This document shows positions 18,481 to 24,692 of a stretch of 64,000 nt of DNA, piece by piece; positions within the stretch are counted from its first letter, which is position 1; the number at the start of each line of letters is the position of its first letter. Below the pieces are notes generated by a model that did not search any database, was not told where the DNA came from, and worked only from the letters and a program-made list of their open reading frames with translations. Source of the stretch: Chitinophagales bacterium (lineage in GTDB: Bacteria > Bacteroidota > Bacteroidia > Chitinophagales > Chitinophagaceae); NCBI GenBank assembly GCA_017303335.1, contig JAFLBK010000001.1, positions 1,555,001 to 1,619,000 of the forward strand. Reading direction: 5' to 3'. The position numbers were made by a program, and so were the translations under genes.

Positions 18481-18636
18481 TGATGTGCTAATTAGCTGAT
18501 TATCCGATTCATCAATTTCTGCAGCAGGTATACAAGAAGTGTCAACTATTTGAAAGCGGGAGCTTCGGTTAGGTCAGAAACCAAACCCATTGATTACTAC
18601 ATCGCTACATCAAATAATCAGCAAATCAGCACATCA
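18481..18636. repeat. 22-bp inverted repeat between atpB and the ABC exporter
   Basis: The arms lie at 18481-18502 (TGATGTGCTAATTAGCTGAT...) and 18615-18636 and match with 2 mismatches in 22. The right arm covers the stop codon of the ABC exporter gene. The 110-nt centre shows no gene. Similar words recur at 35763-35841. Confidence 0.75.
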
Positions 18637-20442
18637 ATCAATCAGGATAACCTGCTTTTCGAACTGCATCTTGTGTAATTGGTAGTAAAACCCTTGTTTT
18701 TCAATGAGTTCCTCGTGGGTGCCCATTTCTTTGATCTGGCCTTTGTCGAGTACCATGATCTGATTGGCCTTGCGGATGGTCGACAGGCGGTGGGCGATCA
18801 CGATCGAGGTGCGGTTAGCGATCAGCTTGTCGATGGCCTGCTGGATCAGGGCCTCGCTTTCCGTATCCACCGAGGAAGTGGCTTCGTCGAGTATGAGGAT
18901 GGCCGGGTCGTAGAGAAGGGCCCGTACGAAAGACAGCAGTTGCCGCTGGCCCAGGGATAGCGTAGCTCCCCGTTCCATCACTTTATACTCATAATTGCCG
19001 GGCAGCTGCATGATGAAATCGTGGATGCCGATGAGCCGGGCGGCGCTGATCACATCCTCTTTCCGGATGGCCGGGTTGCGCAGGGTTACATTGTCGGCCA
19101 CCGTTCCGCTGAACAGGAACACATCCTGCAACACCACGGCGATCTTCGAGCGGAGCGCATCCAGGTGGTATGCTTCAATGGGGGTGTCGTCGATACGGAT
19201 CTGTCCTTTATTGACCTGGTACAACCTGTTCAGCAAACTGATGATGGATGTTTTGCCGCTGCCGGTATGCCCTACGATGGCTAAGGTTTGCCCGGCCTCC
19301 AGTGTAAAAGACACTTCTTTCAATACATACTGATCTTCGTTGTAGGCAAACCAAACCTTGTCGAACTCCACCTTTCCTTTCATGCCATCGGCTTCTTTAT
19401 CGCCTTCGTTGATGGCGCTGTCTTCATTATCGAGCACTTTGAATACCCGTTCGCTGGCGATCATGCCCATCTGCAATACGTTGAATTTATCGGCGATCAC
19501 CCGAAGCGGACGGAACAGCAGGTTCAGGCAGAGGATAAAGGCCGTGATCACGCCTCCTACTTTTTCGGCCTGCCCGGGGTTCAACGCGTCTTTCGCGGCC
19601 CACCAGACCAGGAGCCCGATTGACAGCGCCATCACCAGTTCCACCACGGGAAAGAATACCGAGTAGGCAAAGATGGCCTTGATGTTGGCATTGCGGTGTT
19701 CCTTATTGATGTTGTTGAATTTGCCGAACTCCCTTTTTTCGGAGGCAAAGGCCTGCACGATGGCCATGCCGGTGATGTGTTCCTGTACAAAAGCATTGAG
19801 GCTGGCAACCGCGTTGCGTACCCGGATGAAGGATTTGTTCACGCTTTCTTTAAAGAAATAGGTTGCCAGGATGAGGAAGGGAAAAGGCGCCAGGCATACC
19901 AATGTCAGTTTCCAGCTTACGCTGAACATGTAAGCGAGAACGGAGATGATCGAAAGCAGGTCGGCGATGATCGGAATGAGTCCGTCGCTGAAAATATCGT
20001 TGATGGATTCGATGTCGTTGATGGTTCGGGTGGTAAGGGTGCCGATGGGTGTTTTATCGTACTGCCGCAGGTTCAGGTGCAGTATCTTGTTGTAGGTGCT
20101 TACCCGTATATCCTTCACCACGTTTTGTCCGAGTGAGGCGGTGAGGAAGGTAAAGAAGAAACGGAACAGGGTTTCCAGCAGCAGCAGGGCAAGCTGGATG
20201 ATGGTGATCTCGATGATGAAACCGCCCGGGCCGGTGATGAAATGAGCGGCTGTATTTCCTTTGATGCCGTCGTTGATGGTAAGCTGGATCAGCCAGGGGC
20301 GTATCGGGGAGATGATCGCCAATATGATGGCCAGCAGGAGTGAGGTATAGAATTTACGCTTATAAGGCGCCGCGAAACGAAATACCCGGCGGAGCAACGA
20401 GAAGTCGAATATCTTTTTTTTGGCTTGCTGCGGATCGCTCAT
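18634..20442 (-). CDS. ABC transporter, fused permease and ATPase
   Basis: 602 residues. Six-helix exporter membrane domain (about 20-320), then the nucleotide-binding domain: Walker A GHTGSGKTS, signature LSLGQRQ, Walker B AILILDEATSSVD and an H-loop His (IVIAHRLST). It belongs to the MsbA/LmrA-like homodimeric or heterodimeric exporter class and moves lipids or drugs out through the inner membrane; the substrate is not readable. A TACATTTG element at 20447-20454 sits 5 nt before the ATG, so the transcript may be nearly leaderless. It lies 43 nt after the secreted caspase-like gene and may share its transcript. Confidence 0.93.
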   Translation of the reverse strand: MSDPQQAKKKIFDFSLLRRVFRFAAPYKRKFYTSLLLAIILAIISPIRPWLIQLTINDGIKGNTAAHFITGPGGFIIEITIIQLALLLLETLFRFFFTFLTASLGQNVVKDIRVSTYNKILHLNLRQYDKTPIGTLTTRTINDIESINDIFSDGLIPIIADLLSIISVLAYMFSVSWKLTLVCLAPFPFLILATYFFKESVNKSFIRVRNAVASLNAFVQEHITGMAIVQAFASEKREFGKFNNINKEHRNANIKAIFAYSVFFPVVELVMALSIGLLVWWAAKDALNPGQAEKVGGVITAFILCLNLLFRPLRVIADKFNVLQMGMIASERVFKVLDNEDSAINEGDKEADGMKGKVEFDKVWFAYNEDQYVLKEVSFTLEAGQTLAIVGHTGSGKTSIISLLNRLYQVNKGQIRIDDTPIEAYHLDALRSKIAVVLQDVFLFSGTVADNVTLRNPAIRKEDVISAARLIGIHDFIMQLPGNYEYKVMERGATLSLGQRQLLSFVRALLYDPAILILDEATSSVDTESEALIQQAIDKLIANRTSIVIAHRLSTIRKANQIMVLDKGQIKEMGTHEELIEKQGFYYQLHKMQFEKQVILID

Positions 20443-20485: not shown

Positions 20486-22702
20486 TCATTCTTCCTGGAT
20501 CATGTTATTATATCCCTTCAGGAAGATGGCGCCCAGGTTCTTGTACGGGGGGATATAATCTTCCCAGCTTTCCCGCACCGCCCTGCTGGGGTCGTTGGCA
20601 AAAAGACGGGTGAGCGAGGCCCACATGGTTTTCCAGACCAGTTTATTCCCCGATTCGAAGGTTTGATTCAGGTAATTGAGGATGGGCCGGTTGATGTCGC
20701 CGGTCCCGATCTCTTTGGTAGAAATGATGTGGGCGTCGGGATTCACGTCGATGATGTCGTTCAGGTTCTTGTACCCGCCGCAGGAACCCAGCACCACGAT
20801 GCGTGCATTGCCCGCCATGCGTTTGATGGTACGGGGCAGCCAGTAACTGTGTCCGCGGTGCACCACAACGGATGGCAGCATGTTGTTCTCGGCCAGGTAA
20901 TTATTCAGGTGTACCTGGGCGCTGTCGTCGAGGTTGGCGTCGTTGTCGAGCGGGCGGTTGGCGAATACCCACACATTGCCCTTGCGGGAGCGGATCTCGT
21001 ACCATTCCTTGCCCGGGCTGATGATCCATTCTTTCGGCGAGAAGGAACTGATGAAGGCGGGGAAGAATTTCTTCCCGTCGTCGTCGCCATACCAGTATAC
21101 CTGTTGTACGATGCGGCCGCTGTCGTCGCGGATGTCTTTGTTCTCGATTTCATAGATGGAAGGTATACCCAGTACGCTGGTGAGGTCGATCTTATTGGTG
21201 CTGTCGGCCGAAAGGAAGATGGATTTTAATAAACTGTAGATCGTTTTTCCCCGGCTGTTGTTGTTCTGCAGGGCTTTCTTCTCGTTCTCGATCACATAGC
21301 CGAGGATGGTGCTTTGCAATACCAGGTCGTTGATGCTGCTGTATGAGTCGGCCACATCCACGGCGTCTTCCAGGTTCCCGGTATTATCGAGGTTGGCGAT
21401 GAAGCCCCGCATCAGCGTTTCGGACGATTGCTTGGGCATGAATTTCAGGAAGGTGTCCAGCTTGTTGTAATTGGCGGCCATCTTGATGAACTTCTTGAAG
21501 AAATCGAAATGCACGCTCAGCAGCAGGGAATCGGTGCGGGGTTCGGCCCCCAGCCGCTGCAGCATCCGGAAGAAACTGTGTTTGTAGCTGGAGGTATAGA
21601 TCTCGCTTTCGCTCATCACCATCATGAAATAAATATCCACCGCAGAGAGTGAATCGATCGACCGCATGCGCTGGTTGATATTGCTGAGGTCGTGCAGGGT
21701 ATTGATGGGGGTAACAAAATGCTGGATGGCCTTGGTGCGGAGTACTTCGCGGAGGCCATTCGGACCGAACAGGGCGATCGGCGTGTCTTTGGCGGGCGAT
21801 ACCATCCGTTTGAAATATTCGATCTCGGTTTGCACCAGCAGTTTGAAATAGCCCACGCTGTCGTAACCGGTTTCCCCGTCGCCTACATATTTTTTGATGC
21901 TCTCAACGGTCTTGCGACCCTTGAGCAGGTCGTCGAGAAAGGGGAAGTAGAAAAGGGCATTGGGTGTCTTGCTCAGCTCCACCACCGCTACCACGAGTGG
22001 GTTTTTATTCCGGTGAACCAGCATGCCGAGTTTGGATTCGGCGGCCTGCGCTACCGAGTAGATCGATGTCGGGTTGAATTTGCAACTGATCACGATCAGG
22101 GAGTCGGCAAAAGGTTCATTGATATAGGGTTCGATGGTCTGGAGAATCTTGTCGGGATGGATGACACAGAATTTCTGGTAGAGGATCTTCTTGCTGTCGG
22201 CGTAACCTTTGTTCTCGGAAAAAATCTCCGCGTTGATGCGGCCCAGGGCATAGGGCACTTCCTGGATAAACGGCGCCATGCTCTGGCTGTCGATATTGGC
22301 CTGCATGATCTTCTCGAAATTTTCCAGCAACATGGGGGCGTAGGCCGGGTTGAGTTCCTTGTTGCGCACACCGTGGCGATAACCCCGTACGAGGCTTTCG
22401 ATATAACTCAGGTAGCGTATCTTCTGGTTATTGCTGATGAGCTTTTCGTTCAACTCCACCTTATCCTGCAGTTCGTTCACCTTCCGCAGCATCACGTCGG
22501 CGATGATCTGGTTGATGTCCACGGCATGGGTGGCCCGGATCTGGCCGTCGGCTTTGCCGTCGATCTTATCCAGTTGCAGTTGCTCTTCATTGATCCGGTC
22601 GTGAAATAATTGCCGTTGCAGGGGCACTTTTACCGTATCAACGGCAGCCCGGGCGGATACAGACAGGAAAAGCAGGATGAACAATAGCAGGTTTATTCTC
22701 AT
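20486..22702 (-). CDS. Secreted 738-residue protein, putative clan CD (caspase/CHAT-like) peptidase
   Basis: Signal peptide at residues 1-19 (MRINLLLFILLFLSVSARA). The middle (about 60-550) is mostly helical with no family I recognise. Near the C-terminus, a hydrophobic strand leads to HRGH (His615, His618), and 26 residues later the strand ARIVVLGSC ends in Cys641 followed by GG. A His-Gly block followed by a hydrophobic strand ending in Cys is the catalytic layout of clan CD cysteine peptidases (gingipain, separase, CHAT, caspase). This is inferred from motif spacing alone. It would act in the periplasm or at the cell surface. A divergent two-component system lies upstream, and the ABC exporter is downstream in the same direction. 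Confidence 0.55.
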   Translation of the reverse strand: MRINLLLFILLFLSVSARAAVDTVKVPLQRQLFHDRINEEQLQLDKIDGKADGQIRATHAVDINQIIADVMLRKVNELQDKVELNEKLISNNQKIRYLSYIESLVRGYRHGVRNKELNPAYAPMLLENFEKIMQANIDSQSMAPFIQEVPYALGRINAEIFSENKGYADSKKILYQKFCVIHPDKILQTIEPYINEPFADSLIVISCKFNPTSIYSVAQAAESKLGMLVHRNKNPLVVAVVELSKTPNALFYFPFLDDLLKGRKTVESIKKYVGDGETGYDSVGYFKLLVQTEIEYFKRMVSPAKDTPIALFGPNGLREVLRTKAIQHFVTPINTLHDLSNINQRMRSIDSLSAVDIYFMMVMSESEIYTSSYKHSFFRMLQRLGAEPRTDSLLLSVHFDFFKKFIKMAANYNKLDTFLKFMPKQSSETLMRGFIANLDNTGNLEDAVDVADSYSSINDLVLQSTILGYVIENEKKALQNNNSRGKTIYSLLKSIFLSADSTNKIDLTSVLGIPSIYEIENKDIRDDSGRIVQQVYWYGDDDGKKFFPAFISSFSPKEWIISPGKEWYEIRSRKGNVWVFANRPLDNDANLDDSAQVHLNNYLAENNMLPSVVVHRGHSYWLPRTIKRMAGNARIVVLGSCGGYKNLNDIIDVNPDAHIISTKEIGTGDINRPILNYLNQTFESGNKLVWKTMWASLTRLFANDPSRAVRESWEDYIPPYKNLGAIFLKGYNNMIQEE

Positions 22703-22868: not shown

Positions 22869-23552
22869 ATGAGTACGTCCAATACCGTAAAGAAAATATT
22901 GATTGCCGATGACGAACCGGATATCCTCGAGATCATTCAGTACAACCTGAAGAACGAAGGGTATGAAGTAGCGGCCGCGAAGAATGGCAACGATGCCCTG
23001 GAGCTCGCCAAACGTTTCAATCCCGACCTGATCATACTGGATATCATGATGCCCGGCAAAACCGGCATCGAAGTGTGCAACCTGCTGCGCATGCAACCGG
23101 CTTTCAGCAAAACACTCATCATTTTTCTTACCGCCCTGAGCGACGAAACCACGGAGATCAAGGGACTGGAAACCGGCGCTGATGATTACCTCACCAAGCC
23201 GATCAGTCCGAAAGTGCTGGTGAGTAAGGTGAATTCGCTGTTCCGCCGTATCACGAAAGAAGATACCGGCCTGCTGCAGATCGGCGACCTGAAGATCGAC
23301 CGCGAAAAGTACATGGTCAATTACCAGGGGAACGACATTACGCTTGCCCGGAAAGAATTCGAGTTGCTGGCGCTGCTGGCAGGCAAGCCCGGGAAAGTAT
23401 TCCTCCGCAACGAGATCCTCAACCAGGTATGGGGCACCGAAGTGATCGTGGGCGACCGTACCATCGACGTGCATATCCGCAAGATCCGCCAGAAACTGAA
23501 TCTCGACTGTATCACTACCGTGAAAGGAGTTGGTTATAAATTCGAGATGTGA
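22869..23552 (+). CDS. OmpR/PhoB-family response regulator
   Basis: 227 residues. Receiver domain at 8-125, with acidic pocket D14/D15, phosphoacceptor D58 (LIILDIMMPG) and K110. Winged-helix DNA-binding domain at about 135-227, ending VKGVGYKFEM, as in PhoB. It is paired with the kinase 90 nt downstream. OmpR-family regulators bind direct repeats with a period near 10-11 nt, and repeats of that period occur upstream of several nearby phosphate-related genes. I infer a PhoB-like role from this context; the sequence class alone would not prove it. Confidence 0.9.
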   Translation: MSTSNTVKKILIADDEPDILEIIQYNLKNEGYEVAAAKNGNDALELAKRFNPDLIILDIMMPGKTGIEVCNLLRMQPAFSKTLIIFLTALSDETTEIKGLETGADDYLTKPISPKVLVSKVNSLFRRITKEDTGLLQIGDLKIDREKYMVNYQGNDITLARKEFELLALLAGKPGKVFLRNEILNQVWGTEVIVGDRTIDVHIRKIRQKLNLDCITTVKGVGYKFEM

Positions 23553-23642: not shown

Positions 23643-24692
23643 ATGCTTTCCAAGAAAAATATCTCCCCGCAACAATTATCCGCGTTAACGGCGCTGGCTC
23701 TGTCCATCCCCATCGCGGTGGGCATCTATGTATTTAAACCCGTCTGGTGGATCGCGTTGATTTCATTCGGGGTGATCTTCCTCGGTTCATTCGGCCTCAT
23801 CCTCTATACCGTTCAAACCTTCATCTACCGGAAGATCAAACTCATCTATAAGTTCATCTACCAGACCAAGGCAAGCAGGAAAGAAGAATTTTACTATAAG
23901 AATATCCTCCCGCAAAAAGGTATTGATGAAGTGCGGGCCGACGTAGAAGCCTGGGCCGAACAACGGAAGGCCGAGATTGAAATGCTGCAGCAGAATGAAG
24001 CCTACCGCAAAGAGTTCCTGCAGAACCTCAGCCATGAATTGAAGACGCCCATCTTTGCGATACAGGGTTATGTAGATACCCTGCTCGGCGGGGCGCTTGA
24101 GAACACGGAGGTGAACCGGAAATTCCTTCAAAGCACTTCCCGCAACATCGACCGGCTGGTGAACCTGGTGGACGACCTTGATGCCATCTCCAAGCTTGAG
24201 AGCGGCGAACAGTTGCTGCTCATGGATAGTTTTGTGGTACAGGACCTCCTGCGGGAAGTATACGATTCGCTTTCCATCAAGGCAGACGAAAAAGACATCC
24301 GTTGTATTATTAAAAAAGGCTGCGAAGCCCCGCTGCATGTATATGCCGATAAGGAAAAGATCCGCCAGGTATTCATCAACCTGGTCGATAACGCGATCAA
24401 ATACGGGAAACAGCATGGCACCATTGAAGCCAGCTTTTACAAAGTAGACGGCGCCCGGGTATTGATCGAGATCAGCGACGACGGATCCGGCATTGCCGAA
24501 GACCACCTGCCCCGCATTTTCGAACGGTTTTACCGTACCGACCTCGCCCGCAGCCGCAAAGTAGGCGGCAGTGGCCTGGGACTGGCCATCTGCAAACACA
24601 TCATCGAAGCGCATGGTCAAACGATTCATGTGCGCAGCACCATCGATGTAGGCAGTACGTTTGGATTTACCTTACAGAGCCGGAAAGAATAA
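23643..24692 (+). CDS. PhoR-like membrane sensor histidine kinase
   Basis: 349 residues. Two membrane helices (about 13-30 and 35-60) joined by only a few residues, so there is no real periplasmic sensor domain, as in PhoR. A coiled linker follows, then the H-box with His131 (FLQNLSHELKTP) and the ATPase domain: N-box NLVDNAIKYGK, G1 DDGSGI, F-box RIFERFYR and G2 GGSGLGLAI. No PAS domain is evident. The lack of a ligand-binding ectodomain suggests sensing through another membrane protein, as PhoR does through the phosphate transporter and PhoU. Confidence 0.9.
   Translation: MLSKKNISPQQLSALTALALSIPIAVGIYVFKPVWWIALISFGVIFLGSFGLILYTVQTFIYRKIKLIYKFIYQTKASRKEEFYYKNILPQKGIDEVRADVEAWAEQRKAEIEMLQQNEAYRKEFLQNLSHELKTPIFAIQGYVDTLLGGALENTEVNRKFLQSTSRNIDRLVNLVDDLDAISKLESGEQLLLMDSFVVQDLLREVYDSLSIKADEKDIRCIIKKGCEAPLHVYADKEKIRQVFINLVDNAIKYGKQHGTIEASFYKVDGARVLIEISDDGSGIAEDHLPRIFERFYRTDLARSRKVGGSGLGLAICKHIIEAHGQTIHVRSTIDVGSTFGFTLQSRKE

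Follow-up and report, generated by a model that had tools for sequence, protein, structure and literature searches.

The gene at positions 20486 to 22702 on the minus strand of the window (the whole stretch of DNA analysed, 64,000 nucleotides) probably codes for a cysteine endopeptidase that is exported, most likely to the periplasm, and has a caspase-like domain as its catalytic part; its family is absent from Pfam and NCBIfam. The 738-residue open reading frame starts with ATG, its codons run over 20489-22702, and the stop follows. The first-pass annotation had placed the frame there without giving its strand, and its residue numbers are correct: H615-R616-G617-H618-S619 forms the histidine motif, G639-S640-C641-G642-G643 the cysteine motif, and the spacing from H615 to C641 is 26. 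The protein is organised as follows.

20486..22702, minus strand: coding sequence of the 738-residue exported protein with a helical part and a predicted caspase-like domain (open reading frame list and family homologues)
22643..22702, minus strand: Sec-type signal peptide, residues ~1-20 (sequence, hydropathy of homologues, low pLDDT at residues 18-22)
21170..22621, minus strand: all-helical N-terminal scaffold, residues 28-511 (AlphaFold blocks mostly with pLDDT >90; many invariant columns)
20489..21124, minus strand: predicted caspase-like alpha/beta domain, residues 527-738 (AlphaFold models and structure alignment)

The N-terminus (MRINLLLFILLFLSVSARA, followed by A) has the form of a typical Sec signal, with a KD value of 3.25 for the h-region, and a comparable hydrophobic N-terminal stretch is found by hydropathy in 137 of 161 homologues. 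Sequence and hydropathy reveal no transmembrane or further hydrophobic segment and no lipobox in the mature part. The simplest inference from these sequence features is that the protein is most likely periplasmic; the earlier description of it as secreted holds insofar as it carries an export signal, and is better worded as exported.

The candidate active-site residues lie in the C-terminal domain, all on the minus strand.

20858..20860, minus strand: His615, proposed catalytic histidine (invariant in 167/167; within strand 612-616)
20849..20851, minus strand: His618, second candidate histidine (163/167; lost in four long paralogues, three with Leu and one with Tyr)
20780..20782, minus strand: Cys641 of GSCGG, proposed nucleophile (invariant in 167/167; ends strand 635-641)
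21074..21085, minus strand: D540-x-D542-G543, following strand b1; may form a metal site or the substrate pocket (D540 and D542 in 167/167)
20714..20716, minus strand: Lys663, always Lys or Arg, after the strand that follows Cys641, candidate P1 contact

H615, R616, G617, S619, C641, G642, D540 and D542 are identical in all 167 distinct homologous domains, which come from all loci fetched and reach down to ~26-30% identity. The first-pass annotation had staked its reading on conservation of the His and the Cys, and both are invariant across this set. One subset of homologues was retrieved by the HRGHS pattern, and its HRGHS count is biased since that was the search pattern; the C641 count is unbiased, and so are the other sets, among them 44 sequences from a whole-protein search. 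In the alignment of these 44, some near 26-30% identity, His615, Arg616, Gly617, Ser619, Gly639, Ser640, Cys641 and Gly642 are identical throughout, and His618 is present in 43. As far as sequence can tell, the HRGH and Cys motifs are not chance. One family alignment contains 41 invariant columns. The remaining two cysteines, C178 and C207, are not invariant. The invariant DxDG resembles part of an EF-hand loop and could be a calcium site or a substrate pocket. A match of FYxDxDGK to the EF-hand was considered and rejected: loop position 1 is non-acidic, and only one homologue gives a score, a weak one, with the EF-hand model.

The AlphaFold2 model of the full protein, built with 77 relatives from the window and genome contigs, has a pLDDT of 89.8 and a pTM of 0.78, and residues 505-738 modelled alone reach 89.2 and 0.88. 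Residues 28-511 (~480 residues) are all helical in the model, which bears out the long helical N-terminal part described earlier. The C-terminal domain is composed of b(531-537), a helix, b(559-563), b(567-572), b(577-582), a helix, b(612-616) with H615, a helix, b(635-641) with C641, a helix, b(658-662) and further helices; both models give the element order b1-a1-b2-b3-b4-a2-b5(H615)-a3-b6(C641)-a-b7. By DSSP, H615 is within strand 612-616 and C641 closes strand 635-641, that is, they are at the ends of successive strands. A caspase-like sheet was what the first-pass annotation had expected here, and the predicted fold is compatible with one.

Structure alignment with VIA-align 2 places clan CD proteins in the top rows for the full and the domain models. 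SAVED-CHAT (8tl0) gives Z of 9.9 and 10.1 across the two models (3.2-3.4 A over 153-164 residues; the Z of 10.1 goes with 3.4 A over 164), and the C11 enzyme iotapain (6nag) gives 8.9-9.0 over 177-181 residues (the Z of 9.0 goes with 4.0 A over 177). Separase (9hms, Z 9.8, rmsd 9.7 A) and TPR-CHAT (7y85, Z 8.7) appear with the full model; the separase and DdvA rows have an rmsd near 10 A because the helices are also aligned. Small GTPases follow just behind the clan CD proteins, with Z up to 8.9 over ~137 residues. Nucleotidylyltransferases and gingipains are absent from the top rows, which excludes nothing. Foldseek searches of the PDB and of viral models returned no convincing match: the hits are weak, mostly G domains, with GTPases and other alpha/beta proteins first and poor TM-scores. 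The evidence for the clan CD fold is thus good and not decisive, as the GTPase Z scores are close behind and Foldseek alone leans to GTPases.

Clan CD enzymes have the caspase-haemoglobinase fold, whose central sheet is all parallel with the strand order 2-1-3-4. Consecutive strands of this sheet carry the His and the Cys at their C-terminal ends (PMC4357240), and this is the placement in the model. The dyad order of the clan, His first, is likewise that of the invariant H615 and C641, whose catalytic role is predicted. In the clan's motif, a Gly stands beside the catalytic His and Ala or Ser precedes the Cys; here Ser-Cys is present, and His-Arg-Gly-His takes the place of His-Gly. The clan CD layout first read from the sequence is partly supported: its dyad order and strand ends hold in the model, and the structural match to the clan (Z 9-10) is little above that of GTPases (up to 8.9).

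Sequence comparison connects the protein to no known family. Among the curated models of Pfam and NCBIfam none matches, including CHAT, C11, C13, C14, C25, C50 and C80, and searches of PDB sequences with the single protein and with profiles gave nothing above noise. Era, cellulase, DUF2170 and EF-hand matches were set aside as weak and confined to a single member each. Comparison of the family by hhalign with CHAT, C25, C14 and C11, with decoy and reversed controls, stayed at noise for all four. For CHAT (PF12770) there is no model match among 18 and 19 members and the hhalign probability is 1.5%; for clostripain C11 (PF03415) there is no model match and the probability is 0.4%, with a thin C11 profile of four sequences. 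Gingipain C25 (PF01364) and caspase/metacaspase C14 (PF00656) have no model match and hhalign results at noise, and separase C50 is no exception, no clan CD family being matched in Pfam. The hhalign alignments to CHAT and C14 land on the Cys strand, at noise and suggestive only. Neither the Peptidase_C25 model nor hhalign gives a gingipain match, and Pfam detects no T9SS tail domain, which upholds the earlier placement outside the gingipain family by sequence. Clan CD members need not share sequence similarity, as they are grouped by structure and dyad (PMC12445089, review); the profile negatives therefore neither support nor exclude the clan. They do rule out assigning the protein to any known family by sequence. 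In the literature collection searched, no paper dealt with caspase-like peptidases of Chitinophagaceae.

Homologues are present in 291 of 296 Chitinophagaceae genomes, mostly as a single copy, in 42 of 60 genomes in the whole-protein search of relatives, and in 138 of 299 genomes of the order. Named relatives include Ferruginibacter, Ginsengibacter, Agriterribacter, Flavitalea and other Chitinophagaceae. A survey of 395 genomes spanning the phylum finds the protein in no family but Chitinophagaceae, also with the C-terminal domain alone as query. The gene is core to Chitinophagaceae, and outside that family it is seen only in part of the order. Five family genomes that are 95-100% complete do not have it (G556, G628, G770, G794 and G866); the two of these with 2.3 Mb genomes share one genus, so a lineage-specific loss is possible. 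Several sister families of the order have three copies, two of them in tandem (~900-1,200 and ~700 residues), both with the His and the Cys; such long and short tandem copies are found at loci L033, L036, L037, L166-L168, L171 and L172. In four long paralogues (L171:10180-13188 on the minus strand, L272, L273 and L037:2462-5266), HRGLS or HRGYS replaces HRGHS. All four keep H615, C641, D540, D542 and the basic residue 663, and those whose context was read adjoin an HRGHS-bearing short copy. The long paralogues that lack H618 may be inactive partners, or else this histidine is dispensable.

Several known systems are comparable. The clostripain enzymes PmC11 and iotapain likewise come from Bacteroidota, are exported and share the strand numbering, His133 ending b5 and Cys179 ending b6 in PmC11 (PMC4357240); C11 enzymes align with Z of 8.2-9.0 over 177-190 residues. 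However, our protein has HxG rather than HG, Ser-Cys-Gly-Gly and no match to the Peptidase_C11 HMM, and its long helical scaffold is N-terminal, whereas the extra helices of PmC11 follow the last strands. In separase (MEROPS C50) a large helical part precedes a caspase-like domain at the C-terminus, as proposed here, and the human dyad H2003-C2029 has the same spacing of 26 (PMC9729208); yet separase is eukaryotic and intracellular, shows no sequence match, and has an rmsd of 9.7 A over the whole alignment. TPR-CHAT (Csx29) and SAVED-CHAT combine a helical or sensor part with a caspase-like CHAT domain and provide the best structural rows (Z 8.7 to 10.1), but they are cytoplasmic CRISPR effectors, whereas our protein is exported, belongs to the chromosomal core and has no HMM or hhalign match to CHAT. 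Gingipains (C25) are exported clan CD cysteine peptidases of Bacteroidota, from which it differs in lacking a Peptidase_C25 match and a detectable T9SS tail domain, the profile comparison being negative. The same genome also encodes a tandem pair of C25 peptidases, one C11 protein, five matches to C14 and one CHAT protein (C2:135729-142058, C1:1253441-1254544, C1:1246504-1247232, C4:288700-296723 and C6:21042-21878), and the 738-residue protein matches none of the models that those proteins match.

Two alternatives would take the C-terminal domain out of clan CD. It is quite improbable that the domain is G-domain-like, or another three-layer alpha/beta fold, with an unrelated role for the Cys. 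The GTPase VIA-align score and the predominance of GTPases among the Foldseek matches speak for such a fold, but the first strand is followed by GDDDGKK in place of a Walker A motif (GxxxxGK[S/T]), there is no NKxD, the protein is exported to where GTP is not expected, and the clan CD alignments extend over 164-190 residues in the domain model against ~137 for most GTPases. Given where the dyad lies, how much further the clan CD alignments extend, the missing Walker A and the export signal, we favour the caspase-like domain as clearly the more probable of the two. Class I nucleotidylyltransferases are characterised by HxGH and ISSTxxR motifs, and the HRGH could be read as the former: the strand-HxGH-helix geometry is right, and an ISTKxIG stretch resembles the latter. 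This reading is hardly credible, as the HxGH follows the fifth strand rather than the first, ISTK comes only ~45 residues later, H618 is not strictly kept, and export takes the protein away from ATP.

The other two alternatives retain the caspase-like fold. The domain may have it without being a protease, as a transpeptidase- or transamidase-type thiol enzyme or as a structural domain in signalling that uses its conserved residues for binding. We consider this unlikely: the departure of His-Arg-Gly-His from the His-Gly of the clan and a conservation that reaches far past the dyad would also fit a highly constrained binding role, but a His-Cys pair kept absolutely at successive strand ends in 167 sequences, including diverged tandem paralogues, is as expected for catalysis. 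Possible, though still well short of probable, is a variant of the peptidase explanation in which H618 rather than H615 is catalytic and the four Leu or Tyr long paralogues are inactive partners of active short copies. Gly precedes the catalytic His in clan CD (PMC12445089, review), which G617-H618 fits, and all four losses are in long copies, those checked adjoining an HRGHS short copy. Against this, the copies without H618 retain C641, both aspartates and the basic residue, and H615 is invariant with the His-Cys spacing of human separase.

The neighbouring genes are as follows.

22869..23552, plus strand: OmpR/PhoB-type response regulator, divergent neighbour (Pfam; divergent in 121/129 loci)
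23643..24692, plus strand: sensor histidine kinase whose two TM helices are adjacent, with hardly any periplasmic loop between them (Pfam, hydropathy)
18634..20442, minus strand: ABC exporter, same strand, 43 bp downstream (Pfam; arrangement kept in 105/129 loci)

The 129 are the testable family loci, in which the response regulator is usually followed by its histidine kinase and the atp operon often lies beyond the ABC exporter. The kinase is of the intramembrane-sensing type. An operon with the ABC exporter was considered in view of the shared strand and the 43 bp; a terminator-like hairpin at 20480-20463 intervenes and about a fifth of the loci have no ABC gene, so the exporter is not counted as a partner. 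In a genome of another family (G045) the best kinase orthologue, at 46% identity, again adjoins the homologous tandem pair, whereas five further genomes of the order have it elsewhere; the two-component link is thus old and not obligatory, and the neighbourhood could be conserved synteny. The near-universal divergent two-component system suggests that expression or signalling is tied to envelope state.

We propose the following mechanism for the peptidase with H615 and C641 as its dyad. Cys641 would act as the nucleophile that attacks the scissile carbonyl and His615 as the acid/base, as in the clan CD enzymes separase, CHAT and clostripain. D540 and D542, together with the basic residue 663, may form the walls of the substrate pocket and so determine P1 specificity. 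The ~480-residue helical part may do what its counterparts do in separase and TPR-CHAT: hold and gate the active site and recognise the substrate. The two dyad residues of TPR-CHAT stay separated until bound RNA has rearranged the linker and the active site, and in inactive separase they are about as far from each other (PMC9729208); the large helical scaffold suggests similar gating here. The likely role would be to cleave one envelope protein, or a small number of them, in a regulated way. A bolder version, which we regard as doubtful, is a new clan CD family core to Chitinophagaceae. Its members would be separase-like proteases of the periplasm, controlled allosterically through the helical scaffold, and would carry out proteolysis for the intramembrane-sensing two-component system encoded next to them; in sister families a long and a short tandem copy would work as a pair.

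If active, the protein would represent a new family in a clan of highly specific proteases that is small and well studied. Both its location in the envelope and its architecture would be unusual, the latter because a helical scaffold like that of separase and TPR-CHAT occurs in a protein that is nevertheless exported. The gene is a mostly single-copy core gene without annotated function in a large family of soil and water bacteria, and could lead to a pathway of regulated envelope proteolysis.
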